Assembly (NCBI GenBank): GCA_027623555.1
Contig: JAQBSZ010000023.1
Location: forward strand, 1 to 64,000
DNA: 64,000 nucleotides
Origin: Pseudomonadota bacterium
GTDB lineage: Bacteria; Pseudomonadota; Gammaproteobacteria; Pseudomonadales; Pseudohongiellaceae
Reading direction: 5' to 3'
Below are positions 13,979-55,058 of the stretch, one piece after another; position 1 is the stretch's first letter, and the number at the start of each line of letters is the position of its first letter. Position numbers and translations under genes: made by a program. A model generated the notes under the pieces. The model searched no databases, had not been told where the DNA came from, and saw only the letters and a program-made list of their open reading frames with translations.

Positions 13979-13994
13979 TTATACAATTGAATAC
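13979..13994. promoter_or_regulatory. Putative operator a (gntR / cytochrome-PQQ divergent region)
   Basis: TTATACAATTGAATAC, an imperfect palindrome close to the shared 16-bp consensus, lies between the divergent gntR gene and the diheme cytochrome gene. An additional inverted repeat TGTATAA...TTATACA spans 13965-13984. GntR/FCD proteins bind sites of this type. Confidence 0.55.
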
Positions 13995-14178
13995 AAGTTG
14001 TCAAGACAAGAATGCACCAAGATTCCTCGTTCGGCTAAATCGTCACAACATCGAGCGATTTGGGAAAATTCCAGTACCTTTATGTGATAGCAGGTCTGTG
14101 ATTACTAGCGATATTTTTTCCTCACTGATAATGGTTAAAGTGCAGATGCCATGAAATTCAAATCGGACTGATAAGACT

Positions 14179-14979
14179 ATGAAGCTACTATTCTTAAAAC
14201 CACGCAGTCGATTGTCCATCCTGCTGTCCATTATTGTGACTGGGCCGTTAGTTATCCAGCCATCTATGGCACAAGATACAGGCGATCACACCTATTCTTC
14301 CGAAGCAATTTTGGCCGGTTTGGGCGTTTATAACCGACAGTGCGCACTGTGCCATGGACCGAACGGGTCATCGATAGATGGAATCAATTTGAGCCAGGGG
14401 GTTTTTCGTACTGTAGTTACAGATGATGATCTTCGTGCCGTCATTGCTGACGGGTCGGCAGCAGGGCGCATGCCTTCCTTTTTACTCAGTACCGATGAAA
14501 TGATTGGCATTGTCGCTTATATCAGAGCCGGATTTGATCCTGAAGGCATTGGCGCTAGTGGGATTGGAGACCCTGCTCGCGGGAAGTTGCTATTTGAAGG
14601 CAAAGGGGAATGTGCGGATTGTCATCGAGTGAATGGAGTGGGTCCAAGAACTGCTCCCGACCTCAGTAATATTGGCGCCATCCGCTCACCGACCTCACTG
14701 CAACGTAATATTGTTGACCCTGCGACAGCGTTATTGCCTATAAATCGACCCGTGCGACTGGTCACTAGAAATGAAGAGACAATATTAGGTCGTAGGCTCA
14801 ATGAGGACAGCTATTCTGTACAGATAATCGATTCTAACGAGAAACTAAGATCTGTGCGCAAGTCTGATCTGGTGACCTACGAGATCGGTGATGCTCCTTC
14901 CAAGCAACCCACAACACTTGCCAGCGATGAAGTAGCGGATGTGGTTGCTTACCTGCTTACGCTGCGAGGTCTGCAATGA
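14179..14979 (+). CDS. Secreted diheme c-type cytochrome
   Basis: The 266-residue protein has a signal peptide (cleavage about residue 31, PSMAQ) and two CxxCH haem sites, C55/C58-H59 (CALCHG) and C145/C148-H149 (CADCHR). The C-terminal part after the second haem (ILGRRLNEDSYSVQIID, then KSDLVTYE) resembles the haem-binding tail of large planctomycete-type membrane dehydrogenases. Axial Met candidates occur in GRMPSF and nearby. It overlaps the start of the PQQ dehydrogenase by 4 bp (ATGA) and most likely accepts electrons from it in the periplasm. It is expressed from the operator region shared with the divergent gntR. Confidence 0.88.
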   Translation: MKLLFLKPRSRLSILLSIIVTGPLVIQPSMAQDTGDHTYSSEAILAGLGVYNRQCALCHGPNGSSIDGINLSQGVFRTVVTDDDLRAVIADGSAAGRMPSFLLSTDEMIGIVAYIRAGFDPEGIGASGIGDPARGKLLFEGKGECADCHRVNGVGPRTAPDLSNIGAIRSPTSLQRNIVDPATALLPINRPVRLVTRNEETILGRRLNEDSYSVQIIDSNEKLRSVRKSDLVTYEIGDAPSKQPTTLASDEVADVVAYLLTLRGLQ

Positions 14980-16637
14980 AAATTTTCAATTCTCTAGTTC
15001 TTTCCGCAAGCTCTGCGCTTGTTGTGTTTCTAGGTGCGTCTTCCAGTGCGCAGGTTTCCTATGAGCAGATTCTCAACGCCGCCAATGCTCCAGAAAACTG
15101 GCTAACCTATAACGGGGGTTATTCTGCTCAGCGCTACAGTGCGCTGGACCAGATAACTACAACCAACGTCGATAATCTTCAATTGAAGTGGACTCTACAA
15201 AATCAAGTATTTGGAGCATGGCAATCCAATCCAATTATCGTTGATGGCGTCATGTATGTTACTGAACGGCCCAATACTGTGATGGCAGTAGACGCTGTTG
15301 ATGGTCGGGTTTTCTGGAAATATCGGCATATCCCTGCGGAAAATGCGGTTGTATGTTGCGGCGCTAACAATCGCGGCGTAGCCATATTGGGCGACATGGT
15401 GTACATGGGCACTCTGGATGCGAGACTGATAGCTATAGACCGCGTCAATGGGCAACCACTGTGGAATGTAGAAGTGGGCGATGTGGATCTAGCCTATTCA
15501 GTGACCATGGCGCCCTTAGTAGTGAAAGATAAAGTAATTGTTGGAGTTGGCGGTGGTGAGTATGGAATTCGCGGGTATGTTATTGCATTCGATGCCCTCA
15601 CTGGTGAGGAAGTCTGGAAAACCTATACCATTCCTGGCCCCGGTGAAGCTAATCATGACTCCTGGGAAGGTGACGATTGGGAACATGGTGGTGCACCGGT
15701 CTGGATTACCGGATCGTTCGATCCAGAACTCAATCTGACCTATTGGGGAGTAGGAAATCCCGGTCCAGACTGGAATGCAGGTCAAAGGCCGGGAGACAAT
15801 CTCTATTCCGATTCAGCCATTGCGCTGGACGCTGATACTGGAGAGCTTAAATGGTATTTCCAGTTCACGCCTAACGATGCTTATGACTACGACTCAGTTC
15901 AAGTTCCTGTGCTGGCAGATATGGTTTGGCGCGGGACTCCGAAAAAAGTAATGATGTGGGCCAATCGAAACGGCTATTTTTATGTATTGGATCGCGTAAA
16001 TGGTGAATTTTTAGAGGGCAAACCCTACGTGACTGTTAACTGGTCTAGTGGCCTTGACGAAAACGGCCGGCCTATTCAAACACCGCAGCCAGAAGGTATG
16101 CCTACCTATCCTGGAAATCAGGGTGGTACTAACTGGTATCCGCCCTCCTATAGTCCGCGTACCGGTCTGTTTTATTTTACGGCCTGGGAAGGTTATGCAT
16201 CTATCTATCGTCCGGAGGAATCTGAGTATGTACCTGGCCAGGCTTTCTACGGTGGTGGCTTCTCGGTGCTGGCGCCAGCACCAGATGCGCCAACAATTCG
16301 TATCGGTCGTACCAATCCAATTAACGCCTGGACCAACGAAGTAGGCTACACCTCAGTTAAGGCAATGGACCCACAAACCGGTGAGGCTGTTTGGTCTTTT
16401 GAACAGTTTGATGTTAGTGATAGCGGCATCTTAACTACAGGGTCTGATCTGTTATTCACAGGAGGGCGAGAAGGCCATTTTCACGCCATCGATGCGAGAA
16501 ATGGAGATCTGCTATGGAAGTTAGGTCTAGGCGGACAGATCGTCATGGCACCGGTGACTTATATGGTAGATGGGATTCAATACGTATCTGTTATTTCTGG
16601 AAACTCACTTTCAACTTTTGCGTTGCGAAACCAGTAG
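14976..16637 (+). CDS. PQQ-dependent alcohol dehydrogenase with Asp-Tyr-Asp (lanthanide-type) signature
   Basis: The 553-residue periplasmic quinoprotein has a signal peptide (about residues 1-25) and the eight-bladed propeller with tryptophan-docking repeats (for example GEEVWKTYTIPG, GDLLWKLGLGG). It shows the vicinal disulfide C127-C128 that stacks on PQQ, and DYWGVGNP-like blades (TYWGVGNPGPDW). The catalytic region NDAYDYDSVQVPVL carries the base Asp at D304 and a second Asp two residues later (D306). In XoxF and PedH enzymes this extra Asp coordinates a lanthanide, whereas calcium enzymes have Ala or Ser there. The metal preference is therefore inferred to be lanthanide. Electrons probably pass to the diheme cytochrome encoded 4 bp upstream. 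The substrate is unknown. Confidence 0.9.
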   Translation: MKIFNSLVLSASSALVVFLGASSSAQVSYEQILNAANAPENWLTYNGGYSAQRYSALDQITTTNVDNLQLKWTLQNQVFGAWQSNPIIVDGVMYVTERPNTVMAVDAVDGRVFWKYRHIPAENAVVCCGANNRGVAILGDMVYMGTLDARLIAIDRVNGQPLWNVEVGDVDLAYSVTMAPLVVKDKVIVGVGGGEYGIRGYVIAFDALTGEEVWKTYTIPGPGEANHDSWEGDDWEHGGAPVWITGSFDPELNLTYWGVGNPGPDWNAGQRPGDNLYSDSAIALDADTGELKWYFQFTPNDAYDYDSVQVPVLADMVWRGTPKKVMMWANRNGYFYVLDRVNGEFLEGKPYVTVNWSSGLDENGRPIQTPQPEGMPTYPGNQGGTNWYPPSYSPRTGLFYFTAWEGYASIYRPEESEYVPGQAFYGGGFSVLAPAPDAPTIRIGRTNPINAWTNEVGYTSVKAMDPQTGEAVWSFEQFDVSDSGILTTGSDLLFTGGREGHFHAIDARNGDLLWKLGLGGQIVMAPVTYMVDGIQYVSVISGNSLSTFALRNQ

Positions 16638-18966: not shown

Positions 18967-18982
18967 TTATACAGTTGAATAA
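18967..18982. promoter_or_regulatory. Putative operator b
   Basis: TTATACAGTTGAATAA is one mismatch from operator g. It lies upstream of the minus-strand secreted-protein gene starting at 18885 and just beyond the stop codon of the FAD enzyme gene. Confidence 0.55.
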
Positions 18983-19006: not shown

Positions 19007-20311
19007 CTACTTATTCTTTTCAGCCATATAGTCTTGGAAGGCATACCAGCGAATCAACATTGCGGCCCCCAGGGGCGAAAATCGGTGAAACGGTACGCGA
19101 GGGTTTTTTTCCACTGGCAGCATCAAATCTTCACGCTCAGAACTACCGTTGCATAAGCTGAGCTCTCTGCCGAGTAAAGTAGCCATCGCAAGACCACGAC
19201 CACTGTAGCCTTGAGCGGCCCAAGCGCCATCGGCGAGATGCAGAATTCGTGGAAATTGATCGGTACTGATTGCAATCCAGCCACTCCAGCTTTCTTGCCA
19301 CTCGAACTCAATAGAGGGGAATACCTGCTTGAGACGCTTACTAGCGGTTTTTAAATCGGCTCTTCCATTGGCGCCCATTGCAGGGCCGCCGACACCCAGG
19401 TGTATTTGCCCACTGGGGAGCTTTCTGATGCCAGACCAGAGTTGCCGGGTATCGGTGATGAAATGGTTCTGGGGGAGAACCTCCGCTAATTGAGCTGGAT
19501 CTATAACAGCGGTGGTTGCCCCAAAGCCTCGAACAGGGACAAAGCCTTTCTCAAGTCCGGGCCAAATACCCTTTGTGTAAGCATTCGTGCAAAAGTATAT
19601 ATTCTCGCATTCGACACTGCCCTGGGGAGTCGTGACCCGCCAGTTTCCATCGGGCTTTTGCTTTACATCAACAGCGGGGGTATTGGTGTATTGCTTGGCT
19701 CCCAGTTGATGAGCGGCCCTGAATAGCCCTTGAGCATACGCCAATGGGTTAATCGATAATGCGCGCCTATCAACTAGACCGGCACGATAGTATTCACTTC
19801 CAATGAGTTGGCTGAATTCCGTGGCATTGAGATACTCGACGTCGGCACCACGTGATTGCCAGTATTCGGCGCGTTTTTGCAGTATTTTTTCGAATGCCTT
19901 TGTGTGAGCACCAAAAGCCCATCCACCACTATCAAAAGCGGCGTCTATTTTGTAGCGATTGAGTAATTCTGCAACCAGCGCGGGCCCCTGCGCCAGGGCA
20001 TCGATTACCGCAGTGCCTCGTTGCTGGCCATAGTGATGGATTATCGCTTCTTCGTTGTTTTTATGGCAGGGCACAACTGATCCAAAAGCACGTCCAGACC
20101 CCCCCCAGCCAGGTACCTTGGCTTCAAGTTGTACGACAGATTTTCCCGCGTCCGCAAGGTGTATCGATAAGGTATTACCTGTAATTCCTGCGCCAATCAC
20201 TACGGCATCTGCTTGAATAGGAGTAAGCAATGCCTCCCTTTCGAACTCCCTAGAATCTTGGACTTGATAACTTGCCGGTATGCTGTAAGGCTCGTGAACG
20301 GCGAATGACAT
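19007..20311 (-). CDS. FAD-dependent amine/amino-acid oxidoreductase (DAO family)
   Basis: The product (434 residues from the ATG at 20311, GGGAAG upstream; a GTG start at 20344 is possible) has the dinucleotide-binding VVIGAGITGNTLSIHLADAG near residue 35. It also has the DAO-type WGGSGRAFGSVVPC FAD loop and a C-terminal FAD-closing segment AAQGYSGRGLAMATLLGREL. The overall plan matches gamma-glutamylputrescine oxidase and glycine/sarcosine oxidase relatives, which oxidise secondary or primary amines to imines in the cytoplasm. It is divergent from a GntR/FCD regulator and preceded by a palindromic operator at 20367-20382. It probably feeds the adjacent aldehyde dehydrogenase or aminotransferase pathway. 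A decayed copy of its 3' end survives at 34731-34813. Confidence 0.85.
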   Translation of the reverse strand: MSFAVHEPYSIPASYQVQDSREFEREALLTPIQADAVVIGAGITGNTLSIHLADAGKSVVQLEAKVPGWGGSGRAFGSVVPCHKNNEEAIIHHYGQQRGTAVIDALAQGPALVAELLNRYKIDAAFDSGGWAFGAHTKAFEKILQKRAEYWQSRGADVEYLNATEFSQLIGSEYYRAGLVDRRALSINPLAYAQGLFRAAHQLGAKQYTNTPAVDVKQKPDGNWRVTTPQGSVECENIYFCTNAYTKGIWPGLEKGFVPVRGFGATTAVIDPAQLAEVLPQNHFITDTRQLWSGIRKLPSGQIHLGVGGPAMGANGRADLKTASKRLKQVFPSIEFEWQESWSGWIAISTDQFPRILHLADGAWAAQGYSGRGLAMATLLGRELSLCNGSSEREDLMLPVEKNPRVPFHRFSPLGAAMLIRWYAFQDYMAEKNK

Positions 20312-20366
20312 GTAATTCTTCCCACTGCTGGAATTATGATTCACATTCCTAAAAAGTATCTATTTA

Positions 20367-20382
20367 TTATTCATATGTATAA
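20367..20382. promoter_or_regulatory. Putative operator c
   Basis: TTATTCATATGTATAA lies between the divergent FAD oxidase and GntR/FCD genes and fits the shared palindrome. A half-site TGTATAATA occurs near 20545, closer to the regulator start, suggesting autoregulation. Confidence 0.55.
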
Positions 20383-20586: not shown

Positions 20587-21273
20587 ATGACAACACGTAC
20601 ATCAAAACCGCTAAAGCGCTCATTGACTGATGAGGTGAGGAATCATATCCGAAATGGAATTGCAGAGGGTCGATACCTACCTGGTGAGCGGCTGCGAGAA
20701 AGCACAATAGCTGAAGAGGCTAAAGTTAGTCGTACCCCGATCAGAGAAGCGATTCGAATTCTGGAGGCTGAAGGATTAATCGTGATTGAGCCATGGAAAG
20801 GCATGACGGTAGCAGCTCTGAATCATAAACAGGTATCGAACTTCTATGCATATCGAGAAATGATTGAGGGTCTTGCCGCCGAGATGGCTGCCAGGGTGAT
20901 TACTGACTTTGATATTGAGCGCTTAGACCTTAGTCTTTTGCAATTAGAGGACGGGCGTGAAAAAACCGGGAGCGAACTGGGCGAAGGCAATGAGCAATTT
21001 CATGAAATGATATTTGATATTTCCGGAAATCGGTTTCTTAAGCAGGCAGAAGAAGTGATTAATACTGCGAAAATATTAATATGGAAGCCTGTCTATCGTA
21101 GCCATAAGCGCTGGAAGTTGGCTCAACAAGAACACCGCAAATTGTTTGATGCTTTGCGAACACGTGACCCAATAGCTGCCAAGGCGGCGGCGGAAGAACA
21201 TGTGCGCAATTCCGGACGGACCCGTGTGGCAGCCATTGTGAAAGAAGAATTAGAGACTGATAAACTCAAATAA
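20587..21273 (+). CDS. GntR-family transcriptional regulator, FCD subfamily (second)
   Basis: This 228-residue protein has the winged HTH at about residues 12-75 (NHIRNGIAEGRYLPGERLRE, then EEAKVSRTPIREAIRILEAE). The FCD domain shows the usual metal-site pattern in EGNEQFHEMIFDISGN, QQEHRKLFDAL and AAAEEHVRNSGRT. It is divergent from the FAD oxidase and adjacent to the aldehyde dehydrogenase and hydantoinase operon, and so is the most likely local repressor. Shared operators across the window suggest that this protein and the 13.0-kb regulator recognise similar DNA; the recognition-helix core RTPIRE is identical in both. The ligand is unknown. Confidence 0.9.
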   Translation: MTTRTSKPLKRSLTDEVRNHIRNGIAEGRYLPGERLRESTIAEEAKVSRTPIREAIRILEAEGLIVIEPWKGMTVAALNHKQVSNFYAYREMIEGLAAEMAARVITDFDIERLDLSLLQLEDGREKTGSELGEGNEQFHEMIFDISGNRFLKQAEEVINTAKILIWKPVYRSHKRWKLAQQEHRKLFDALRTRDPIAAKAAAEEHVRNSGRTRVAAIVKEELETDKLK

Positions 21274-21307: not shown

Positions 21308-21385
21308 GAAGATCCCTAGGTATAGTCATCCCCGAAGATTCCTTAGCATAGTCAACCCTGATGCTTCCTTGGTTTAGTCAGCCCA
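21308..21385. repeat. Three 26-bp tandem units spanning the aldehyde dehydrogenase stop codon
   Basis: Units at 21308-21333, 21334-21359 and 21360-21385 share the pattern GAAGATTCCTTGGTATAGTC with drift. The third includes the last codons and TAA of the aldehyde dehydrogenase gene, so the 3' end of the gene has been duplicated twice outward. Each unit repeats the Ala-Asp-stop sequence on the minus strand. Confidence 0.75.
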
Positions 21386-22816
21386 TACGATTGCTTTGGT
21401 TTGCATATAAATGCGGATGCCTTGCGTGCCTTTTTCTCGTCCCAGGCCACTCTCTTTATAACCACCAAAAGGTGTCGAGATCGATTGTTGTTTATAAGTA
21501 TTGATCCAAACCGTGCCCGCTTGTAATCCTCGCGCAATTCGCCAGGATCGTTTTTGATCGTTTGTCCAAATTCCGGCGGCTAAGCCATGGACACTATCAT
21601 TGGCTTGACTGAGCAAATCTTGCTCGTCGTCAAAAGGCAATACCACAACTACAGGGCCAAACACTTCTTCCTTACAGATACTGGACTGATTGGTGACGTT
21701 GCTTATTACCGTTGCGGGATAATAGGCACCTGATTTGAGCTCACTAGTTTTGGGAATTTTCCCACCACAGAGTAGTTCTGCTCCTTGCTCAATTGCACGC
21801 GTCACATGACTATGTACCAAGTCTCGGTGCTGGAAGTTGGCCAGAGGACCTATATCCGTAGATTCTGCATCAGGCGGACCTAAGACTAATTCATCGGCGC
21901 GTTTTACCAATGCAGATACAAAACGGTTGTATATAGCGCGCTCCAAGAAAACTCTAGAACCCGCAACACAGGATTGCCCGGCGCCAGAAAATATTCCTTT
22001 TACTACACCTTTCAATGCTGCATCGAAGTCGGCGTCGGCAAAGACGATGTTCGGTGATTTGCCACCCAATTCTAATACTACGGGTTTCAATAATGCGCCA
22101 GCACTTGCAGCGATCCGTTTCCCTGCCACTGGACCACCGGTGAAGCTAATCATACCTATTTCCGGATGCTCGACTATCGCTCGGCCAATGTCGGAGGCAC
22201 CTGTGATGACCGACAAAACGCCGGGGGGTAAGCCGGCTCGTTCGCCAATGCGCGCATATTCAAGTGCGATCAGTGGTGTGACTTCGGAGGGCTTAAGTAT
22301 CACGCAATTACCCGCAGCAAGGGCCGGCGCAAGTTTGTTTGCTTCAAGCAGGGCTGGTGAATTCCAGGGAGTGATCAAGCCGACTATACCGATGGGTTCG
22401 CTCACCGCGATTGACATATAGTCTCCGCGAGACGGAGTGACAAGATCTTCTAAGGTTTCGCAAATCCCAGCATAGTAACGAAAGCAGTTTGCCGCATCGG
22501 CAATCATTCCACGGCATTCGCCTATGGTTTTGCCGTTGTCGGTCATTTGAATTTGACTGAGGTTGTCGGCATCTACATCAATCAGCTCACCCATTCGGTA
22601 GAGAATTCGAGCACGCAAATGCGGTTTTAAATCACGCCAGCGAGGATTGTTGAATGCTTGCTGAGCGCCCTTAACAGCACTGTTGACATCAGATGTAGAA
22701 GCACCGCCAATCATCGCAATTTCACTACCATTTGCAGGATTTATCGAGGCAAATGGTTCGCCACCCCCAGTGGTCCATTCTCCTGCTATATAAAATTTTA
22801 GTGTCTCGCTCACCAA
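21374..22816 (-). CDS. NAD(P)-dependent aldehyde dehydrogenase
   Basis: The 480-residue protein is a complete ALDH-superfamily enzyme. It has N152 in ITPWNSP, K175 in ILKPSE, the general base E249 in LELGGKSP, and the nucleophile C283 in GAGQSCVAGSR. The C-terminal PFGGYKESGLGREKG is also typical. It oxidises an aldehyde to the acid in the cytoplasm. Neither possible start is ATG (TTG 22816 or GTG 22813), both behind AGGAG. It is divergent from the hyu operon with an operator between them (22967-22982), so it probably oxidises the aldehyde made by the ThDP decarboxylase-like enzyme or the FAD amine oxidase of the cluster. The stop codon lies in a 26-bp tandem repeat. Confidence 0.93.
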   Translation of the reverse strand: MVSETLKFYIAGEWTTGGGEPFASINPANGSEIAMIGGASTSDVNSAVKGAQQAFNNPRWRDLKPHLRARILYRMGELIDVDADNLSQIQMTDNGKTIGECRGMIADAANCFRYYAGICETLEDLVTPSRGDYMSIAVSEPIGIVGLITPWNSPALLEANKLAPALAAGNCVILKPSEVTPLIALEYARIGERAGLPPGVLSVITGASDIGRAIVEHPEIGMISFTGGPVAGKRIAASAGALLKPVVLELGGKSPNIVFADADFDAALKGVVKGIFSGAGQSCVAGSRVFLERAIYNRFVSALVKRADELVLGPPDAESTDIGPLANFQHRDLVHSHVTRAIEQGAELLCGGKIPKTSELKSGAYYPATVISNVTNQSSICKEEVFGPVVVVLPFDDEQDLLSQANDSVHGLAAGIWTNDQKRSWRIARGLQAGTVWINTYKQQSISTPFGGYKESGLGREKGTQGIRIYMQTKAIVWAD

Positions 22817-22956: not shown

Positions 22957-22983
22957 TTGACTGTGATTATTCAAATGTATAAA
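22957..22983 (+). promoter_or_regulatory. Putative promoter with embedded operator d
   Basis: TTGACT (22957-22962), a 15-bp spacer and TATAAA (22978-22983) frame the operator TTATTCAAATGTATAA (22967-22982). The same 25-bp arrangement recurs at 55032-55058. It faces the hydantoinase operon, whose start is 86 bp downstream. An overlapping palindrome implies repression by steric exclusion. The 15-bp spacing is short for a sigma-70 promoter, so the exact -10 box may lie 1 bp on. Confidence 0.6.
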
Positions 22984-24745: not shown

Positions 24746-24782
24746 TAGTCATCTGAACATTTATAATAGAGCAATTCTTAAA

Positions 24783-26882: not shown

Positions 26883-26891
26883 GAATAATAC

Positions 26892-28505: not shown

Positions 28506-28517
28506 GAGAAAATAATC

Positions 28518-29318: not shown

Positions 29319-29323
29319 ACGCG

Positions 29324-30244: not shown

Positions 30245-30315
30245 CATCGTTGAGCGTAACTCTTGCGAGCTGATGGACGGATTCTATAGCGCTTGAATAA
30301 ACTGAAGGCTGCTAG

Positions 30316-31605: not shown

Positions 31606-31606
31606 C

Positions 31607-34675: not shown

Positions 34676-34720
34676 GTATTCAATTGTATAAATAACTTGT
34701 AAAAATGTACATGTTTATTT
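34676..34720 (-). promoter_or_regulatory. Conserved promoter block with operator e
   Basis: The operator GTATTCAATTGTATAA (34676-34691) is followed by the 23-bp block TGTAAAAATGTACATGTTTATTT (34698-34720). On the minus strand the whole block matches 43809-43853 with the same spacing. It faces the secreted-protein gene starting at 34612 and may also influence the plus-strand gene at 34932. Confidence 0.6.
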
Positions 34721-38616: not shown

Positions 38617-38632
38617 TTATTCAGTTATATAA
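38617..38632. promoter_or_regulatory. Putative operator f
   Basis: TTATTCAGTTATATAA lies 226 bp upstream of the quinoprotein-cytochrome gene. The preceding 30 bases (AAGCATTTTA followed by CAAT) also resemble the sequence before operator d at 22936, extending the similarity to about 50 bp. Confidence 0.5.
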
Positions 38633-43814: not shown

Positions 43815-43853
43815 ACATGTACATTTTTACAGGCTCATTATACAATTGAATAA
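43809..43853 (+). promoter_or_regulatory. Conserved promoter block with operator g
   Basis: A 23-bp block AAATAAACATGTACATTTTTACA (43809-43831) is followed by operator TTATACAATTGAATAA (43838-43853). It matches the block at 34676-34720 in opposite orientation. TTTACA at its end may be a -35 element. It lies 165 bp upstream of the gene at 44018. Confidence 0.6.
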
Positions 43854-46264: not shown

Positions 46265-46306
46265 AGGGCGCAAAGGTTCTTCCTCGAAATTAGTGAGAGA
46301 GAAAGA

Positions 46307-47392
46307 ATGAGCAATAAGGACGAAACCAAGAACCGCACTGAAAACGCAATTAGTCGGCGCACTTTTGTCAATTCGATGGCCACACTCGCGGCGGCGTTTG
46401 GTATGGGCGGCAAGACGGTGTTGGCAGCACAAAATTCGCCGGCGATACCAATAAGTGCTATCAATCACATGACCCTTGCTGTGTCTGACCCTGCGGCATC
46501 ACTTGCCTGGTATCAAGGTTTATTTGGACTGCCCATCGCAGCACGCCAAGGTGGAACGGTTGTTCTGCGGATTGGTGATGGTCCACAATTCATGGCTATC
46601 AGTAGTACTCCCAGCAATAACCCTGGCATTGATCATTATTGCCTGGCAGTGGACAATTTCGACCACACCGAAGCTGTGCGAATCCTTGCCGAAAATGGTG
46701 TTGAGGCAGCTAACGCATCTGGTCCTATGCAGTCGCGAGTGAGAATGCGGGGAGAGGAGTTTGGCGGCGCACCTGGCGGCACACCAGAGCTCTATTTTGG
46801 TGACCCCGATAGCATCGTGATTCAATTGCAAGACACAAATTACTGTGGCGGCGCCGGCTTGTTGGGTGAAAATTGTCTGTCCACACCAGAACCTGTGCCT
46901 ACCAAAGGCCTGCTATCAATTCGAGAATTCAATCACTTTACTTTATATGTCTCAGATCAGACTCGTTCCATCCAGTTTTATCAAGGCCTGTTCGGTATGC
47001 CTATTGATACCTACCAGGGTGCTTTGCCGGTATTGAGAGTTGGAAGTGGCAACCAGTTTTTAGCGCTGTCAAGCCAACCCGCTAGGGCAGGGCGCATAGA
47101 TCATGTGTCGCTAGCGGTAGATGATTTTGATGTTGATCGCCTATTTTCTTTATTGGAAAGCTATGGATTGACGATACTCGGAGAAGCTGGAGGATCGAGC
47201 TTGCCACTACAAGCATACGTAACAATGCGTGGAGCTGATCGCGGTGGTGCAGTTGAGGGTACTCCAGAGTTATATTTTACCGATCCAGATGGCATAAAAA
47301 TCCAACTGCAGGATAGTAGCTACTGCGGTGGCAATGGCTATCTTGGTGACGAGTGCGGCACCGTGGCTAATCCCACTGGACGTAACAATTAA
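46307..47392 (+). CDS. Tat-exported protein with two VOC (glyoxalase-fold) domains
   Basis: The 361-residue protein begins with a twin-arginine signal (R17-R18 in SRRTFVNSM, then AAFGMGGKTVLAAQN), so it is exported folded, often with metal bound. Two VOC modules follow, at about 45-175 (INHMTLAVSDPAASLAWYQG ... YFGDPDSIVIQLQD) and 200-340 (FNHFTLYVSDQTRSIQFYQG ... YFTDPDGIKIQLQD). Each carries a His near its first strand and a Glu in PELYF, consistent with metal ligands of glyoxalase or dioxygenase type. Both modules end with a Tyr-Cys-Gly-Gly motif. It probably acts on a small oxidised intermediate in the periplasm. Confidence 0.82.
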   Translation: MSNKDETKNRTENAISRRTFVNSMATLAAAFGMGGKTVLAAQNSPAIPISAINHMTLAVSDPAASLAWYQGLFGLPIAARQGGTVVLRIGDGPQFMAISSTPSNNPGIDHYCLAVDNFDHTEAVRILAENGVEAANASGPMQSRVRMRGEEFGGAPGGTPELYFGDPDSIVIQLQDTNYCGGAGLLGENCLSTPEPVPTKGLLSIREFNHFTLYVSDQTRSIQFYQGLFGMPIDTYQGALPVLRVGSGNQFLALSSQPARAGRIDHVSLAVDDFDVDRLFSLLESYGLTILGEAGGSSLPLQAYVTMRGADRGGAVEGTPELYFTDPDGIKIQLQDSSYCGGNGYLGDECGTVANPTGRNN

Positions 47393-47418
47393 TTCTCAGG
47401 TTTCGGCAGGCACATGAA

Positions 47419-49875
47419 ATGAAAAAAGTTCTCCTAATAACTTTATATATGGCGGTTCCATGCCTGCTCTTTGCGGCAGAATCGGTGAATCAGAGTGTCT
47501 CGGCGAGCAATCGTGCATTGTTGGATCAATACTGCGTCATCTGTCACAACCAGGCAGTGGTCAATTCAGCAGCCACGGCCAATGAAGGCCTTCAAACCAC
47601 ACAGCTGCGAAATCTTGGCCTGACTTTGGATACTGAGGATGTGACGAATTTGGCGGCAAACCCCGAAGTGTGGGAGAAGGTCATCAACAAACTTCGAGTG
47701 GGTGTTATGCCTCCTCCTAACTACCCTCGTCCAGACAAAGTAAGCTATGACGGTTTTCGTGCCTGGCTTGAGAACGAACTCGACCGCATAGCTGCAAGGC
47801 AGGTCAATCCAGGACGTACTCAGGCGTTTCATCGACTCAACCAAACTGAATATAGAAACTCTATCCGTGACCTGCTTGATCTCGACATCGATGTATCAGA
47901 TCTAATTCCAGCAGATGCACCAGACCAGTACGGCTTTGATAACAATGCTGAAGTATTGGCGCTGTCGCCGCTGAGTGTGGCGCGCTATGTCACTGCTGCA
48001 CATAAGGTGGCGGAACTAGCAGTTGGCGCATCACCACGCGGGGCTTCCATCCAGACTTACGACGTTCCGCTAAATCTGATTCAAGACGATCGACTCAGTG
48101 AGGAATTACCTTTCGGCTCACGCGGCGGAACTGCAATTGAGCACCTGTTTCCTGTGGACGGTGAGTATCGCATTACAGTGAAACTGCAGACCAACTATGT
48201 AGACTTCGTCCGTGGATACGATGAAGCCCACGAGATGGAACTTAGCCTCGACGGTGAGTATCTCCAGAAATATGCATTCGGTGGCGATGCTCCGGGCATG
48301 CCATCACCCTACGGTTATGCAGGAAATGTCCGCGGCAGCGACGACTGGGAAGAGTTTATGATGGCCTTCGCGGATAAAGGCTTCGAATTAGTGCTACCCA
48401 TTAAGGCTGGCCCGCGAGTTATTGGTGCCACTTTCCCGCGGGAGACGTGGGAAATCGAAGGTGTACAGCAACCCCGACTATTCGGCTATCACCTGGCAGT
48501 GAACGAAATGCCAGATGCTAATCCCAGTATTGGCAGCATAGCAATAGAAGGACCCTTATCAGTAACGGGGCCCGGCGATACCCCTAGCCGACAACGTATT
48601 TTCAGCTGCCAACCGGCGAGTGCTGATGAGGAACCTGCCTGTGCACGCGAGATACTGAGTTCGCTGGCGCGACGCGCGTATCGCCGCCCAATAGACGAGA
48701 GTGATGTACAAGGACTGATTGATTTCTACAACCAGGGTCACGTTGAAGGCGGTTTCGATACCGGTATTCAGTTTGCTCTGGAACGTTTGTTGGTTTCACC
48801 GGACTTTCTATTTCGTATCGAAGAGGATCCGCTTGATGCGGAGCCCGGAAGCGCGTACGCCATCACCGACACCGAGCTGGCCTCCCGCTTATCCTTCTTT
48901 CTTTGGAGTAGTCTGCCGGACGACGAATTGTTAGATCTGGTTGAGCGCGGCGCCTTAAGGAATCCCGGCGTGCTCGAGGCCCAGGTAAAAAGAATGATGA
49001 CCGATTCTCGCTCCTCAGGCTTCATCGAAAATTTCGTCGGTCAGTGGCTTTACTTACGTAATCTAGATGGCATCTATCCCGACCCCGCGGCTTTTCCTGA
49101 GTTTGATGAAAATTTGCGGGAAGCCTTCCAGAAGGAAACAGAGTTGTTCATTGATGATCAGATCCGTTCCGACAGAAGTATGCGCGAATTGTTGAGCGCC
49201 GATTACACCTATGTCAACGAACGTCTTGCTGAGCATTATGGTATCCCTAAAATTTATGGCAGTCGCTATCGAAAGGTAATGCTGGAAGGCGCCGAACGAG
49301 GCGGCCTGTTTGGCCACGGCAGCTTGATGATGGTGACCTCCTATCCCAATCGCACCTCACCGGTGCTACGCGGAAAGTTCGTGCTCGAGAATCTGCTTGG
49401 TGGGCCACCCCCGGAGCCACCACCCAATGTGCCAGCGCTGGAAACCAGCAGCGATGGCAGGCAACTCACTATGCGCGAAGCCATGGCAATGCATCGGGAA
49501 AATCCGGCGTGCCGGGTTTGTCACGCGGCGATGGACCCGATTGGTTTTTCATTAGAGAATTATGATGCGGTGGGTAAATGGCGTACTGAATTTGCCGGCC
49601 AAGCGATCGACGCGTCCGGACTACTTCCTGATGGCAACACCTTTGATGGCCCTGATGGTTTACGCGGGTTATTGCTCGAACGACCTGATGATTTTGTTGG
49701 CACCATTACAGAAAAGCTAATGCGATTCGCCCTCGGGCGCAGTCTCGAATACTACGATATGCCCGAGGTGCGTGAGATTGTTCGCGCCGCCGCGGAGGAC
49801 GACTATCGATGGTCGTCAGTGATTCTTGGCGTCATTGAAAGCGCCCCATTTCAAATGCGGAGAACTGAGCTATGA
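47419..49875 (+). CDS. DUF1592-type multidomain cytochrome (DUF1587/1595/1592/1588/1585)
   Basis: The 818-residue protein has a signal peptide (LLFAAES) and a haem motif at C39/C42-H43 (YCVICHN). Domains of the planctomycete-cytochrome group follow in the usual order: AFHRLNQTEYRNSIRDLLDL (DUF1587), ILSSLARRAYRRPIDESDVQ (DUF1595), ITDTELASRLSFFLWSSLPD (DUF1592), GLFGHGSLMMVTSYPNRTSP (DUF1588) and a C-terminal FVGTITEKLMRFALGRSLEY (DUF1585). A second CxxCH is at C698/C701-H702 (CRVCHAAMDPIG). A carbohydrate-binding-like insert lies at about 200-350. Its partner DUF1552 gene overlaps it by 4 bp. The biochemical role of the pair is not established. Confidence 0.92.
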   Translation: MKKVLLITLYMAVPCLLFAAESVNQSVSASNRALLDQYCVICHNQAVVNSAATANEGLQTTQLRNLGLTLDTEDVTNLAANPEVWEKVINKLRVGVMPPPNYPRPDKVSYDGFRAWLENELDRIAARQVNPGRTQAFHRLNQTEYRNSIRDLLDLDIDVSDLIPADAPDQYGFDNNAEVLALSPLSVARYVTAAHKVAELAVGASPRGASIQTYDVPLNLIQDDRLSEELPFGSRGGTAIEHLFPVDGEYRITVKLQTNYVDFVRGYDEAHEMELSLDGEYLQKYAFGGDAPGMPSPYGYAGNVRGSDDWEEFMMAFADKGFELVLPIKAGPRVIGATFPRETWEIEGVQQPRLFGYHLAVNEMPDANPSIGSIAIEGPLSVTGPGDTPSRQRIFSCQPASADEEPACAREILSSLARRAYRRPIDESDVQGLIDFYNQGHVEGGFDTGIQFALERLLVSPDFLFRIEEDPLDAEPGSAYAITDTELASRLSFFLWSSLPDDELLDLVERGALRNPGVLEAQVKRMMTDSRSSGFIENFVGQWLYLRNLDGIYPDPAAFPEFDENLREAFQKETELFIDDQIRSDRSMRELLSADYTYVNERLAEHYGIPKIYGSRYRKVMLEGAERGGLFGHGSLMMVTSYPNRTSPVLRGKFVLENLLGGPPPEPPPNVPALETSSDGRQLTMREAMAMHRENPACRVCHAAMDPIGFSLENYDAVGKWRTEFAGQAIDASGLLPDGNTFDGPDGLRGLLLERPDDFVGTITEKLMRFALGRSLEYYDMPEVREIVRAAAEDDYRWSSVILGVIESAPFQMRRTEL

Positions 49876-51206
49876 ATATTTTTAAAAAGACCCTGCCTCG
49901 ACGCACACTGCTGCGTGGAATAGGTGCGAGCCTGGCATTGCCGCTGCTCGACAGCATGATCCCGGCACTGTCCTCTGCTTCAGCACAAACAGCGCAACCG
50001 GCGAAACGACTCGGCGTGGTTTATGTGCCCAACGGTATGGCGATGAAGTCATGGACTCCAGCCACAGAAGGTACGGGCTTCGAAATTACCCGCATCCTGG
50101 AACCGATGGCTGCCTATCAGGATCGAATGCTGGTATTGACCGGGCTTAACGGCACTACCAGTAACGCCGGTGTACACGCCAGTGCATCAACCCGCTTTCT
50201 AACCGGAACAATTCCTGCTCGCACCGAGTCAGATCTACAGGCCGCAGTTTCAATAGATCAACTTGTTGCTCGAGAGCTTGGCCGGCAAACTCAACTTGGT
50301 TCCCTGGAGCTGGCGCTGGATCAAAGTGATGTGTTTGGTTCCTGTGACATCGGTTTCAGCTGCCAATACACCAGTACCATTGCCTGGCGAGATGCCAACA
50401 CACCACTACCAATGGAGACCAATCCGCGGGCAGTTTTTGAACGATTATTTGGCGACACCGGCACTACCGATCCAGCGGTGCGCTTACAACGGATTCGCAA
50501 AGATCAAAGCCTTTTGGATGCAGTATCAGATCGTGTGTCTGAGCTGAATCGAAAAGTCGGTGCTGGCGATCGCGCCAAGCTTGACCAGTATCTGGATGCG
50601 GTTCGTGACGTGGAACGACGGATTCAAATGGCAGAGGCACAAAGCAATCGTGAGTTACCAGAAGTAGAACAACCTGCTGGCGTGCCTGCCACTTACGAGG
50701 AACATGCCAAGCTTATGTTCGACATGCAGGTGCTCGCGTATCAAACTGATCTTACTCGAGTTATAACATTCATGATGGGGCGTGAACTAAGTGGTCGCAC
50801 CTATGCCGAGATCGGAGTGCCTGATTCTCACCATCCAACTTCCCATCACCGTGATGATCCCGGGCTCTACGAGAAGATCACCAAAATTAACGAATTCCAC
50901 ACCAGCCTTTTTGCCTACTACCTCGACAAGCTCGACGCTACGCCTGATGGTAATGGTTCGCTGCTGGACAATATGCTGATGCTCTATGGCGCTGGCATGT
51001 CTGACAGCAATCGACACGATAACACCGGACTGCCCTTAGTGCTGCTTGGTGGTGGCTCCGGCTCGGTTACGGGTGGGCGACACCTTCGCTATACCGAGGG
51101 CACACCCATTAGCAATCTGCATTTGACCATGCTCGATAAGATGGGTATTCCTCTGGATAAGATTGGTAACAGCACCGGTGCGCTCAATCTGTTAAGTGAT
51201 GTATAG
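49872..51206 (+). CDS. Tat-exported DUF1552 protein
   Basis: The 444-residue protein starts with a twin-arginine signal (R10-R11 in LPRRTLLRGIGASLALPLLD) and matches DUF1552: RLGVVYVPNGMAMKSWTPAT near residue 45, LTGLNGTTSNAGVHASASTR, and SDVFGSCDIGFSCQYTSTIA. The later blocks PDSHHPTSHHRDDP and MLYGAGMSDSNRHDNTGLPL are also typical. The fold is alkaline-phosphatase/sulfatase-like; clustered His and Asp could bind metal. It overlaps the DUF1592 gene by 4 bp (ATGA), and the two families are regularly adjacent, indicating a functional pair. Substrate unknown. Confidence 0.92.
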   Translation: MNIFKKTLPRRTLLRGIGASLALPLLDSMIPALSSASAQTAQPAKRLGVVYVPNGMAMKSWTPATEGTGFEITRILEPMAAYQDRMLVLTGLNGTTSNAGVHASASTRFLTGTIPARTESDLQAAVSIDQLVARELGRQTQLGSLELALDQSDVFGSCDIGFSCQYTSTIAWRDANTPLPMETNPRAVFERLFGDTGTTDPAVRLQRIRKDQSLLDAVSDRVSELNRKVGAGDRAKLDQYLDAVRDVERRIQMAEAQSNRELPEVEQPAGVPATYEEHAKLMFDMQVLAYQTDLTRVITFMMGRELSGRTYAEIGVPDSHHPTSHHRDDPGLYEKITKINEFHTSLFAYYLDKLDATPDGNGSLLDNMLMLYGAGMSDSNRHDNTGLPLVLLGGGSGSVTGGRHLRYTEGTPISNLHLTMLDKMGIPLDKIGNSTGALNLLSDV

Positions 51207-51216
51207 ATTGAGGTTA

Positions 51217-52809
51217 ATGATGAGAAAGCTTATCAATTCAGGTTTTTCAAATCGGTCGATTGTGAGGCAAGTGCTGACAGCCCTGGCATTAACAATCTCA
51301 TCTGCCATCGCCTTGGCCGAGAACCCTCCACTAATCGAAGCAGCAAGACATCAAGATGCAGCAGCTGTACGACTAGTATTAGCCTCAGGTGCGGACCCGG
51401 ACGTAAGTCAGTCCGACGGCGCCACAGCGTTACATTGGGCCGTGTATCAAGAAGACGTCGACATGCTAGCGGCGTTAATCCAAGCCGGAGCTAACGTCAA
51501 TATCACGAATCGGTTAGGCGCCTCGCCGCTGTACCTGGCCGCCAAGAATGGTAATGCCGAATTAATTGAGAATCTGCTAAGAGGCGGCGCCGATCCTAAT
51601 CTCGCTTTGCCAATTGGTGAAACACCTCTCATGACCGCGGCTCGATCAGGTACTGTAGAGGGCGTACAGCAGATGCTTGCAGCAGGAGCAGACGTCAATG
51701 CGAATGAAAAAACACGAGGGCAAACTGCACTAATGTGGGCCGTTGCTCAGGGCCATGTTGACGTTGCGCGGGCGCTGATCAATGCAGGCGCAAATTTAGA
51801 AGCCAGATCGAAAGTACGTCCTCGACTCATGTATGTCGAAGCTACTAACGGGTACTCGTTTGATCCAGGCATAGTTGAGCAACTGGGCGGTTATTCCCCG
51901 CTGCTTTTTGCAGCAGCACGAGGCCATGTCGAAGTAGGTCAACTGCTTATACGTTCAGAAGTTGACGTTAATGGTGTCGCTGGTAATGGAGCAAGCCCGT
52001 TAGTGGTTGCAACCCACAGTGGTCACCCTGACTTTGCGCGCCTATTACTCTCCGCTGGCGCCGACCCCGATGCAATTGGCGCCGGTTACAACGCGTTGCA
52101 TGCGGCCGCGTTGCGCGGTGATCTCGAAACAGTAGAAGCACTCCTCAAATATGGCGCTGATCCTGATGTCAGACTCAAACGACCCACTCCCGTGCAACGG
52201 GCAAGTGAAGATTGGGCACTAAAAACTCCCCTGGTCAGTGCAACGCCTTACTGGTTAGCCGCTAGTTTTCGCGAAGCAAAAATAATGAGTGCTCTCGAGC
52301 AAGGTGGGGCAAATCCCCTTTTGACCACAGAAGAAACTTTCTACAAAAAAGGAACATCCCGTGCAGATCGCCTGGATCCACCCGAACCAAAAGCAGTGGA
52401 CGGGTTTGCTAGTGCAGTGCAGGCAGCCATAAGAGGGGATAGTACCCGCCAACGGTTCAATACCATTCCAAATCCTGATCCGGTTGGCGAAGAACGCTTA
52501 ACCCTCGAAGCTGTCATTGTAGCGGCGGAACACGGCGTTAACCTAAATCACTTTGACTTCAACGAATCAACAGCACTGCATTACGCAGCAGAACGAAACC
52601 TACCGACCGTGGTGCGAGAATTAGCCGAACGAGGCACTGATATCAACGCGCTGAATGGCGAAGGCCAAACTCCGCTTGATGTCGCCATAATAATGGAAAA
52701 TACCACCGATTTTTTTAACTTTGATCTGAGACCTAAACCCGGACCAAAACCAAGCGAAGTGCTTGTGGAATTTGGCGCTGTCAGGTCTGATATCGAAGGT
52801 AATCCATGA
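51217..52809 (+). CDS. Secreted ankyrin-repeat protein
   Basis: From the ATG at 51217 (GAGG upstream) the product is 530 residues. The N-terminus is a signal peptide (ALTISSAIALAENP) and at least eight ankyrin repeats follow, for example DGATALHWAVYQEDVDMLAA, LGASPLYLAAKNGNAELIEN, GETPLMTAARSGTVEGVQQM, GQTALMWAVAQGHVDVARAL and STALHYAAERNLPTVVRELA. A non-repeat insert occurs at about residues 350-430. Such exported ankyrin proteins accompany DUF1592/DUF1552 genes and may assemble or protect the partners in the periplasm. It starts 10 bp after the DUF1552 stop and so is co-transcribed. Confidence 0.88.
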   Translation: MMRKLINSGFSNRSIVRQVLTALALTISSAIALAENPPLIEAARHQDAAAVRLVLASGADPDVSQSDGATALHWAVYQEDVDMLAALIQAGANVNITNRLGASPLYLAAKNGNAELIENLLRGGADPNLALPIGETPLMTAARSGTVEGVQQMLAAGADVNANEKTRGQTALMWAVAQGHVDVARALINAGANLEARSKVRPRLMYVEATNGYSFDPGIVEQLGGYSPLLFAAARGHVEVGQLLIRSEVDVNGVAGNGASPLVVATHSGHPDFARLLLSAGADPDAIGAGYNALHAAALRGDLETVEALLKYGADPDVRLKRPTPVQRASEDWALKTPLVSATPYWLAASFREAKIMSALEQGGANPLLTTEETFYKKGTSRADRLDPPEPKAVDGFASAVQAAIRGDSTRQRFNTIPNPDPVGEERLTLEAVIVAAEHGVNLNHFDFNESTALHYAAERNLPTVVRELAERGTDINALNGEGQTPLDVAIIMENTTDFFNFDLRPKPGPKPSEVLVEFGAVRSDIEGNP

Positions 52810-52869
52810 GGTCAATCTTCGCGGTAAACAAGTAGATAGACAAGGAATAAAAAAGATGGAGCAGCTAAT

Positions 52870-54867
52870 ATGCAACACAGCCGTCATTGGGCTTTTATTG
52901 AAATGTTAAGTTCAGCTGTAGTTTTTCCACGAATAATAGGGGCTCTATTTTTCTCTACAACCCTGATGGTTTTCGCGCAAAGCGGGAGCAGCGACGGGGA
53001 GTGGCCTAGTTATGCTGCCGACGCCGGCTCCACAAAGTACACCAATCTCAGCCAAATCAATGCCGACAATTTTGCTGAACTGGAAATTGCCTGGCGCTGG
53101 GCTTCCATCGATGCTGATATAGATTTCGAAGCATTGTTAGGCCCTGATGCTGATATTGGCTTCGGCCGCTTGCAGGCAACTCCGCTGATGATTGATGGTG
53201 TGGTCTATATGCTTACTGCTTTGAATCAAGTGGCAGCATTGGATGCGGCCAGCGGAGAAATGCTGTGGGCCTACGACCCAGAAGTTTACCTGTCCGGCGA
53301 GCCTATCAGCCCATTGGGTTTTCATCATCGGGGTGTGGCCTGGTGGAGTGATGGAGAAGACTCTAGAGTATTAGTTACCACCAATGATGGCTACATTATT
53401 TCATTGGTGGCGGAAACCGGTGAAGTCGATCCCGCTTTTGCCGGCGGTCGCGTGGATATGACAGTCGGCATTCCCAGGGCCGACCGCGATTCTTTCGACT
53501 ACGCGGGAGCGCAACCAGTAGGGGCAGTGTCTCCCCCGATAGTGGTAGGCGACATATTAGTAGTTCAACAAATCACTTCAAACCGGCCCCACTATAAAGA
53601 ACGTCCTCCCACCTGGATTCGAGGTTATAACATCCTTTCTGGGGAGCTGGTCTGGACCTTTCACACAATTCCCCAGGGTGGTGAGTTCGGCGTTGAAACC
53701 TGGCAGGAAGAGTCCTGGCGCTATACCGGCAACGGCGGTGTCTGGACTCAGATGAGTGCCGATCTCGAACTGGGCTACGTCTATCTGCCAACTGAAGCAC
53801 CAACTAATGATTTTTATGGTGGCCATCGCCCAGGTGATAACTTGTTTACTCAGAGTGTTGTCGCTCTTGATGCGAGCACTGGTGATCGGGTCTGGCATTT
53901 TCAAATGATTCACCATGGTATATGGGATTACGATACTCCAGCGGCGCCAAACTTGATTGATATTAATGTTGATGGAAGAGAAATTAAAGCCCTTGCTCAG
54001 GTCACTAAACAGGGGTTTACCTACGTATTCGATCGGGCTACTGGCGTACCGGTGTGGCCAATTATTGAACGATCGGTTCCTAAAGGTTTAATCCCGGGTG
54101 AGAGAACATCACCAACCCAACCGTTTCCGACTAAACCCCCACCGTTTGTTGTGCAAGGGTTAACCGAAGATGACCTGATCGATTTCACTCCGGAACTGCG
54201 AGCTGAAGCGCTAGAAATCCTGGAAGACTATACCTGGGGACCACTATACACGCCAGCAAGTTTGCCCGACAACGATGGTCACCGCGGTTCAATATTTGTT
54301 CCCGATATCGGCGGAGGTGCTAATTGGGAGGGTGCTGGAGTTGACCCTGAAAACAATATTTTGTTTGTTCCAGGATCTAATGCTGCCTCCTCACCTTTAA
54401 TGGGAACGCTGCCGGAGGATGAATCAAACTTCCGATTCTTTCGCTTGCTTAATCGAGGGGTTCTAGGGCCGCGACGCTTACCCCTATTAAAGCCGCCTTA
54501 TTCCACGATTACCGCCTACGACATGAATCGTGGCGAGATTTTGTGGCAGGTTGCCAATGGCGATGGGATGGCTCAAGTTGAGAACAATCCGGCAGTGGCA
54601 GGGATCGATTTGCCACCACTTGGCGGTGGCGGCAAGCATCCAGTGCTGGTGACATCCACACTCTTAGTGCATGCGCAAAACACCAGTGACGGGACTAAAT
54701 TGATCGCGCGAAATAAATTGACCGGGCAGGAGCTTGCGGCAATTGATCTTCCTGGCAACCCCAATGCCGCGCCTATGAGTTTCTCCGTCGACAATAAGCA
54801 ATACATAGCGGTCGCTGTTTCCGGTCAGCCAGCGCCAGAGCTTATTGTTTATGCTTTACCCAATTGA
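52870..54867 (+). CDS. PQQ-dependent dehydrogenase, glucose-dehydrogenase-like propeller
   Basis: The 665-residue periplasmic protein has a signal peptide (MVFAQS, about residue 38) and an eight-bladed PQQ propeller. It opens with WPSYAADAGSTKYTNLSQIN, the usual start of the membrane glucose dehydrogenase group. Active-site segments are PLGFHHRGVAWWSDGE, FHTIPQGGEFGVETWQEESW, and HHGIWDYDTPAAPNLIDINV, where the Asp after IW is the expected base. The N-terminal membrane domain of the classical enzyme is missing and no haem motif is present, so electrons must go to a separate carrier, for instance the cytochromes encoded nearby. It closes the operon beginning at 44 kb. Substrate could be a sugar, polyol or other alcohol. 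Confidence 0.9.
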   Translation: MQHSRHWAFIEMLSSAVVFPRIIGALFFSTTLMVFAQSGSSDGEWPSYAADAGSTKYTNLSQINADNFAELEIAWRWASIDADIDFEALLGPDADIGFGRLQATPLMIDGVVYMLTALNQVAALDAASGEMLWAYDPEVYLSGEPISPLGFHHRGVAWWSDGEDSRVLVTTNDGYIISLVAETGEVDPAFAGGRVDMTVGIPRADRDSFDYAGAQPVGAVSPPIVVGDILVVQQITSNRPHYKERPPTWIRGYNILSGELVWTFHTIPQGGEFGVETWQEESWRYTGNGGVWTQMSADLELGYVYLPTEAPTNDFYGGHRPGDNLFTQSVVALDASTGDRVWHFQMIHHGIWDYDTPAAPNLIDINVDGREIKALAQVTKQGFTYVFDRATGVPVWPIIERSVPKGLIPGERTSPTQPFPTKPPPFVVQGLTEDDLIDFTPELRAEALEILEDYTWGPLYTPASLPDNDGHRGSIFVPDIGGGANWEGAGVDPENNILFVPGSNAASSPLMGTLPEDESNFRFFRLLNRGVLGPRRLPLLKPPYSTITAYDMNRGEILWQVANGDGMAQVENNPAVAGIDLPPLGGGGKHPVLVTSTLLVHAQNTSDGTKLIARNKLTGQELAAIDLPGNPNAAPMSFSVDNKQYIAVAVSGQPAPELIVYALPN

Positions 54868-55031
54868 AGGGCCCATGTCGTGAAGAAGACTTGACGACGA
54901 TAGTTAGTTTGGAACTTATGCCGAAACCATGTTGTGAATACGACAACAAGCTGAGATGAATTAGCTATGGTTTTACGATATCCACAAACTTCTAATTGGA
55001 TAAATAGACGGAAATTCAGTCAACTTTTGCC

Positions 55032-55058
55032 TTGACTGAAATTATTCAAATGTATAAA
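55032..55058 (+). promoter_or_regulatory. Putative promoter with embedded operator h
   Basis: TTGACT (55032-55037) and TATAAA (55053-55058) enclose operator TTATTCAAATGTATAA (55042-55057), which is identical to operator d of the hydantoinase operon. The rest of the gap 54868-55223 shows no gene. It faces the NHL gene at 55224. Confidence 0.6.

Follow-up and report, generated by a model that had tools for sequence, protein, structure and literature searches.

Does the 64,000-nucleotide stretch analysed here (the window) carry one regulon, marked by the near-identical 16-bp sites that lie between its genes, and if so, which protein reads these sites? The window is C2:1-64000 of the genome G000 (the own genome; 4,501,354 bases in 95 contigs), and it was compared with a set of 84 genomes of the genus. 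Judged by their conservation, the sites are one conserved, island-specific set of predicted operators. The element TTATTCA-NN-TGTATAA is probably the operator of one island-specific system, most likely that of the FCD-type regulator GntR1, of GntR2 or of both, which would repress until a ligand is present.

Eight 16-mers were found in the window at the positions given by the sequence-only reading, and all eight were intergenic (Table 1). Mismatches were counted against TTATWCAAWTGWATAA; on the best strand there were none at 22967, 43838, and 55042, two at 38617, and one at each of the four other sites. With up to three mismatches allowed, the window gave 18 strand-matches, whereas 100 shuffles averaged 3.9 and reached at most 13; the sole additional place was a three-mismatch site at 4082, within a mechanical open reading frame (ORF). 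The sites at 22967 and 55042 were identical, as had been claimed, and each was preceded by TTGACT with a 15-bp spacer to TATAAA. The description of the site as a plain palindrome did not hold: one arm had A at position 5 and the other had T in all eight window sites.

In the own genome, 20 places had at most one mismatch: 7 on C2, 5 on C12 (117.9–143.1 kb), 7 on C19 (10.5–45.0 kb), and 1 on C10 (C10:16376), which was the exception to the 19 on C2, C12, and C19. The site set, which the sequence-only reading had confined to 13–56 kb, continues outside the window on C12 and C19. Allowing up to two mismatches gave 26 forward and 25 reverse matches, compared with 5 and 9 for the reversed control. 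The good matches were neither spread over the genome nor coding, so the refuting case of a motif equally dense in coding DNA or genome-wide was not observed. In the sister species G013, contig C8 carried interleaved orthologues of many window, C12, and C19 genes at about 70–130 kb, with sites at the matching promoters. Both C12 and C19 end about 1.3 kb past their last site. The pieces on C2, C12, and C19 look like one island, joined here by the gene order of G013.

The multi-genome site set was drawn from 14 contigs (519 kb of island and flanks) of 8 genomes; no more than one mismatch was allowed over 12 fixed positions. It held 81 sites, of which 72 were intergenic and 9 within ORFs by a plain ORF caller. 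When ORFs were kept only with a homologue or a length of at least 200 aa, 74 of the 81 sites were intergenic, and the remaining 7 fell within the first 22 or so codons of ORFs whose starts had been extended mechanically. At two mismatches the proportion reversed (4 intergenic, 21 coding), and these matches are background. Among the 84 genus genomes, the exact sequence TTATWCANNTGWATAA occurred at least twice in 8, once in 4, and not at all in 72; its reversed control had matches in 2 of the 84. The eight genomes with repeated copies were G000 (10), G013 (6), G043 (5), G078 (2), G080 (6), G085 (9), G087 (5), and G088 (6). Alignment of orthologous promoters showed that the site was kept in 7 promoters of the DAO/gntR2 pair, 6 of the aldehyde dehydrogenase/hydantoinase pair, 7 of the 33575/34932 pair, and at 12 of 14 gntR1 copies. 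A fragment of the island in G051 carried four sites with no more than one mismatch, one of them exact, and the single exact site of G092 was flanked by homologues of 44018 and 46307; both are real island remnants. The single sites in G070 and G045 lay inside or at the edge of ORFs, looked like chance matches, and were rejected as island sites. Repeat spread or a mobile element was likewise rejected as the source of the sites, since different promoters have little in common beyond the 16-mer and the promoter boxes.

TTATTCAATTGTATAA stands for the operator with unlike arms, and TTATTCANNTGAATAA, TTATTCAATTGAATAA, and TTATACAATTGTATAA for symmetric versions. Positions 5 and 12 both held A or T in 68 intergenic sites; of these, 65 had unlike arms, one of the TTATACA type and one of the TTATTCA type, and 3 were symmetric. 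Another letter was present in 4 further sites. In the own genome the arms were unlike in 19 of 21 sites (p = 1e-4, the related sites being non-independent). Read as TTATTCANNTGTATAA, 24 of 78 sites were preceded by TTG at a distance of exactly 10 bp (19 of them TTGAC), 15 bp from TATAAA, and in 7 sites it stood one base nearer. In the opposite reading, TTG lay exactly 27 bp upstream in 31 of the 78, followed after 17 bp by a hexamer that opened with TA in 30 of these 31 sites versus 8 of the remaining 47. The consensus registers were TTGACx-N15-TATAAA in one direction and TTGnAn-N17-TAnnTT in the other. In promoters with these registers, the site covers one promoter's -10 box and spacer, and it also overlaps the -10 end and the start point of the promoter that faces the other way. 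An operator that overlaps the core promoter, as in an FCD-type local repressor regulon, is thus seen at the sequence level in both registers (24/78 and 31/78). Since many sites stand in fixed register over promoters, their position suggests repression by occlusion; activation may also fit.

The fixed -35-like and -10-like registers could also be read as a promoter class, served for example by an alternative sigma factor, with the repeated element being no operator at all. This is very improbable, given the near two-fold symmetry of the 7-bp arms, the many sites that have ordinary TTGACx/TATAAA boxes, and the occurrence of both orientations relative to unambiguous genes. The latter count in the own genome (7 forward, 3 reverse) also led us to reject the unlike arms as a simple transcription arrow, at least as a full account. 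The TTATACA arm carries or adjoins a -10-like hexamer in both registers, and a promoter demand may lie behind the fixed arm difference. As a separate observation, the sites at 34676, 43838, and G000:C12:131396 share a common flank with ATGTACAT, a GT..AC palindrome that is nearer to the usual FCD operator. In the reverse reading, TGTAC stood at a distance of 20 bp at 3 own sites and at 7 of 78 overall; possibly this flank is a -35 box or a second operator.

With an operator as the preferred reading of the element, its binder becomes the question. Two GntR/FCD regulators are encoded in the window, as had been stated: GntR1 and GntR2 both matched their two Pfam families above cut-off, with an N-terminal GntR winged helix-turn-helix domain and a C-terminal FCD domain, and were about 30% identical to each other. 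The motif RTPIRE, which had been taken as their shared recognition core, proved not to be diagnostic; a scan of bacteria and archaea with MSRTPIRE as one of two patterns gave at least 597 stretches, and the loci listed belong to many phyla. The metal/ligand pocket of FCD proteins follows the pattern D or N-x3-H, H, H. The corresponding residues by sequence are D139, H143, H187, and H209 in GntR1, invariant in 14 copies, and H139, H183, and H205 in GntR2, invariant in a 6-sequence alignment. The nearest solved chains by sequence include 7xp0, 7u5q, 4p9f (McbR), and 6z74.

GntR1 orthologues (at least 67% identity, 14 copies) were found in exactly the 8 of 84 genomes with two or more exact sites (8/8 vs. 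0/76; Fisher p = 2.3e-11, uncorrected for kinship); the exceptions, G051 and G092, have one exact site. Other FCD proteins of about 30% identity are present in many genus genomes. A GntR1 search (E 1e-30) in the order matched 2 of 390 genomes (142 genera), both within the genus. Among the best 80 loci listed from a collection of named genomes, the GntR1 matches of 68–75% were five metagenome-assembled genome records of uncultured Gammaproteobacteria, and the next match had 38%. The own genome had four FCD matches, one of them below cut-off, and two of the four were in the island. A site adjoins gntR2 in 7 genomes as well as gntR1 in the 12 copies counted above; one of the two gntR1 copies without a site is at a contig start, and the other, in G078, has none within 500 bp. 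GntR2 orthologues (71–77% identity, besides the window's own) were present in 7 of the 8 GntR1 genomes. In the eighth, G087, the contig holds the DAO gene with its site and ends about 260 bp further on, beside the expected place of gntR2; the absence of GntR2 there was therefore rejected as proof of binding by GntR1. Tandem duplicates of gntR1 were observed in four islands (G013:C8:74763-76514, G088:C6:177315-178951, G080:C35:3211-4834, and G087:C120 with C134).

Several points weigh against GntR1 and GntR2 as the binders. The nearly invariant C and G of the site are ordered C-N4-G, giving AC..GT across the TTATACA arm; the motif is therefore AC-N4-GT and fails the test for a FadR-subfamily operator (a NyGT-Nx-ACNy palindrome), for which the published consensus is GT-Nx-AC (PMC4494728, in the portion available). 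No GntR1 or GntR2 orthologue was detected in G051 and G092 (90% and 87% complete), despite sites beside island-gene homologues. The species in the Fisher test are non-independent. The registers are thinner in the own genome (6/19 and 3/19), and much of the 78-site count comes from orthologous promoters. An AraC-family regulator lies in the G013 island (G013:C8:100701-101804) and has homologues in G085:C3 and G043:C71. Finally, the scan of own-genome island proteins, which revealed no other helix-turn-helix regulator with the exception of an AbiEi antitoxin beyond the site range (C12:112633-113415), was limited to ORFs of at least 120 aa on C12 and C19 and, in the window, to such ORFs and the shorter ones of the Pfam set.

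These points bear on an alternative in which the operator is real and another factor, encoded elsewhere in the genome or by an unscanned small ORF, binds it, the GntR proteins being passengers that are regulated by it or that bind a different site. The polarity of the motif and the persistence of sites in G051 and G092 speak for such a factor; they are also where the earlier assignment to a GntR/FCD regulon is weakened. Where that assignment stands, and where the alternative is met with difficulty, is the exact co-occurrence of gntR1 with multiple sites among the 84 genomes and the conserved synteny of sites flanking the gntR genes. The AraC regulator was rejected as a common binder: among the fetched contigs it was seen only in the G013, G085, and G043 islands, and tblastn (E 1e-5) gave no homologue in those of G000, G088, G080, G078, and G087, which cover only parts of these genomes. 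On balance, another binder is unlikely.

A heterodimer of GntR1 and GntR2, or of two GntR1 copies (GntR1a-GntR1b), with one protein on each arm, would account for the unlike arms described above, and two FCD families are present in 7 of the 8 island genomes, with four gntR1 copies in G087. The low identity between GntR1 and GntR2 speaks against it, and the promoter demands suggested by the -10-side position of the TTATACA arm in both registers may explain the arms as well. We know of no FCD heterodimer, and we regard this arrangement as distinctly unlikely. GntR1, GntR2 or both, acting as repressor, is the reading kept in what follows.

Comparison with known systems, as far as the available portions of the cited articles describe them, showed partial likeness. 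Atu1419 of Agrobacterium fabrum (VanR group, PF07729) is also an FCD-type GntR of a catabolic region; it is a repressor that controls its own gene, and its palindromes lie on the -10 box or between -35 and -10 (PMC7797058). Its site, ATGTATACAT, is GT..AC, with three identical palindromes in one small region, whereas 21 AC..GT sites on three contigs are found here. In Corynebacterium glutamicum, two regulators named GntR1 and GntR2 likewise share one operator and control several operons; they are redundant and their operator is in reasonable agreement with TNGTNNNACNA, whereas identity within the present pair is about 30% and the island motif departs from that pattern (PMC2230225). BioR and NanR are FadR-subfamily regulators with operators outside the consensus, and the BioR site TTATMKATAA has the same outer TTAT/ATAA as the island operator. 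Nevertheless, the BioR site is 10 bp long, NanR reads direct repeats, and the available part of the article describes a fixed arm difference for neither (PMC4494728). None of four exact operator 16-mers was found in the open papers searched, and nothing on the regulon in the titles and abstract openings listed, most subscription journals being outside the scope.

The site at 13979 had been assigned to the cytochrome/PQQ (pyrroloquinoline quinone) genes. These genes do lie on its other side; its TTGACA orientation points instead to a leader RNA and gntR1. A block CTTGACx...TATTCANNTGTATAA was found upstream of 12 of 14 gntR1 copies. In 7 of the 8 genomes (all except G078), one gntR1 copy has, between this block and the ORF, a stretch of about 140 nt that contains hairpins and ends in a terminator. 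The fold of the window RNA had a z of -6.57, and the six other terminator-bearing copies had z of -2.1 to -6.8. Changes on both sides occurred in 5 of 18 consensus pairs. Four of five covariation measures were reached by none or by one of 500 shuffles, unlike the fifth, which concerns further pair types (235/500). The 13979 promoter seems to drive this putative small RNA rather than a protein gene directly.

A model built from the seven copies matched 59 of the 84 genus genomes, mostly once each. The own genome has a second copy, the core copy, at G000:C10:33021-33143 (L212; 82 bits). Out of 15 core loci fetched, 14 were aligned; L222 was left out when the terminator pattern of the script missed it. 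Over the 14 loci the mean column identity was 92%, and the TCATTTATCTCTCCCTTGATAG stretch did not vary; 12 of them were preceded by GGAACTT-N16-TCNNA, which we take to be the sigmaE consensus. A core-copy model matched 9 of 293 genomes of the order, all in the same family. Since the window RNA is paralogous to a core RNA found family-wide, the island appears to hold a second copy of a family-conserved core small RNA behind its own operator, from which it would be expressed.

The leader might instead be a cis attenuator of gntR1, working by regulated terminator read-through and not as a trans-acting small RNA. Its place directly upstream of gntR1 in 7 genomes, with the terminator before the ORF, fits such a role. 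Its homology to the family-wide RNA, which stands elsewhere in the genome behind its own sigmaE-like promoter, does not, and the five leaders at duplicate gntR1 copies have no full terminator (two were folded, with z about -1 and no significant structure). We consider an attenuator somewhat unlikely. A likeness was seen to the Betaproteobacteria toxic small RNA family RF02278 and its relative S17 of Bordetella, which has a conserved C/U-rich stretch; in both, as here, such a stretch is followed by a terminator hairpin (PMC11722255, in the portion available). They belong to another bacterial class, and the promoters here are sigmaE-like at the core copy and of the operator type at the island copy. 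No Rfam family reached its threshold in the window or in seven core loci tested; RF02278 was the best sub-threshold match (36.8 bits, E 4.7e-6, for the window copy and 31.9 bits for the own core copy; gathering 50). A search for targets in 108 start regions of own-genome contigs gave no duplex better than the best shuffled seeds.

The units that bear sites are listed for the window in Table 1; some island proteins were placed by homology only. Site-bearing units include PQQ dehydrogenases and cytochromes, secreted-family members, NHL propellers, the hydantoinase operon, the DAO oxidase, and a TonB receptor (C19:18803, identified via a 58% G013 homologue). Periplasmic and cytosolic steps are thus both under site-bearing units. 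The sequence-only reading had proposed a periplasmic oxidation programme; its periplasmic steps were found, and the term is too narrow, since the set reaches beyond 13–56 kb and cytosolic enzymes and a TonB receptor belong to it, as apparently does a small RNA. As substrate, a lactam or cyclic amine is only a guess, because the caprolactamase and pipecolate oxidase matches were far below cut-off.

Table 1. Predicted operator sites and associated features of the window
Feature	Position	Strand	Remarks
Operator site 1	13979..13994	-	minus-strand reading GTATTCAATTGTATAA in TTGACA-N15-TATAAC, TTGACA at 13999-14004; faces leader RNA and gntR1
Operator site 2	18967..18982	-	52 bp upstream of secreted-family gene 18067-18915
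Operator site 3	20367..20382		between DAO gene and gntR2; TTGTAG-N17-TATTTT toward DAO, TTG 27 bp from site; 7 genomes
Operator site 4	22967..22982	+	TTGACT (22957-22962)-N15-TATAAA toward hydantoinase operon; TTGTAT-N17-TAATTT toward aldehyde dehydrogenase; 6 genomes
Operator site 5	34676..34691		between secreted-family gene 33575-34612 (-) and NHL gene 34932-36125 (+); 7 genomes
Operator site 6	38617..38632	+	weakest, arm TTATATA; upstream of cytochrome/PQQ gene 38858
Operator site 7	43838..43853		upstream of operon 44018-54867, orientation reversed relative to operon
Operator site 8	55042..55057	+	TTGACT (55032-55037)-N15-TATAAA toward NHL gene 55224-56417
GntR1 (P0001), GntR/FCD regulator	13019..13684	-	Pfam PF00392 and PF07729
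Candidate small RNA or terminated leader, ~142 nt	13829..13970	-	three hairpins, CUCUCC stretch, intrinsic terminator ~13831-13863
Cytochrome c (14179-14979) and PQQ dehydrogenase (14976-16637)	14179..16637	+	divergent from 13979 site
DAO-type FAD (flavin adenine dinucleotide) oxidoreductase	19007..20344	-	best NCBIfam similarity L-pipecolate oxidase, far below cut-off
GntR2 (P0002), GntR/FCD regulator	20587..21273	+	Pfam PF00392 and PF07729; 71-77% orthologues in 6 further genus genomes
Aldehyde dehydrogenase	21374..22816	-	divergent target of site 4
Hydantoinase B/A, TPP (thiamine pyrophosphate) enzyme, SDR, class IV aminotransferase, MFS	23069..31605	+	hydantoinase nearest NCBIfam caprolactamase CapB/CapA, far below cut-off
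Target operon: 748-aa protein without Pfam match, glyoxalase-fold, PSD/PSCyt, HXXSHH, ankyrin, PQQ dehydrogenase	44018..54867	+	

Further observations concern the island genes. A secreted-looking family with a GQPDLQGVW-like motif has 13 members, at 16915, 18067, 33575, 59315, and 60465 in the window and eight on C12 and C19; the six members scanned had no Pfam match. A cytochrome/PQQ gene of the window (38858-40971) is split into the overlapping ORFs 38858-40156 and 40084-40971, as if by a frameshift or sequencing error. An AbiEi/AbiEii-type toxin-antitoxin pair (G000:C12:111750-113415) lies about 4.5 kb before the first C12 site, and an IS200-like transposase (G000:C19:32442-33155) lies within the C19 part of the island.

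The proposed mechanism adds an inferred binder, repression, ligand, and RNA expression to what is observed, namely the site set, its conservation, the co-occurrence with gntR, the promoter-like register, and the structured, conserved RNA sequence. Without inducer, a dimer would occupy the site. It would block polymerase at two promoters, since the site covers the -10 box and spacer of one and, in the divergent one, the -10 end together with the start point. Release of the dimer, and with it induction of the island, would come from a ligand that is produced or imported along with the island substrate. TonB uptake, periplasmic oxidation by PQQ enzymes and cytochromes, the lactamase-like hydantoinase operon, gntR2, and the small RNA from the 13979 promoter would then be switched on. 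More tentatively, the island, present in a minority of the genus, might have put under its own operator a second copy of the C/U-rich RNA whose core copy stands behind a sigmaE-type promoter for envelope stress, so that induction would release catabolic operons together with an RNA that silences host mRNA. Its FCD regulators might read the operator in the reversed order AC..GT and require its arms to be unlike.

With an exact predicted operator, a promoter geometry, and two named candidates for the regulator, a large catabolic island that was uncharacterised becomes one defined regulon. The polarity of the operator would widen the range of sites known for FCD regulators. The small RNA, if real, would be a clear example of a conserved core regulatory RNA rewired by an island that is only variably present.

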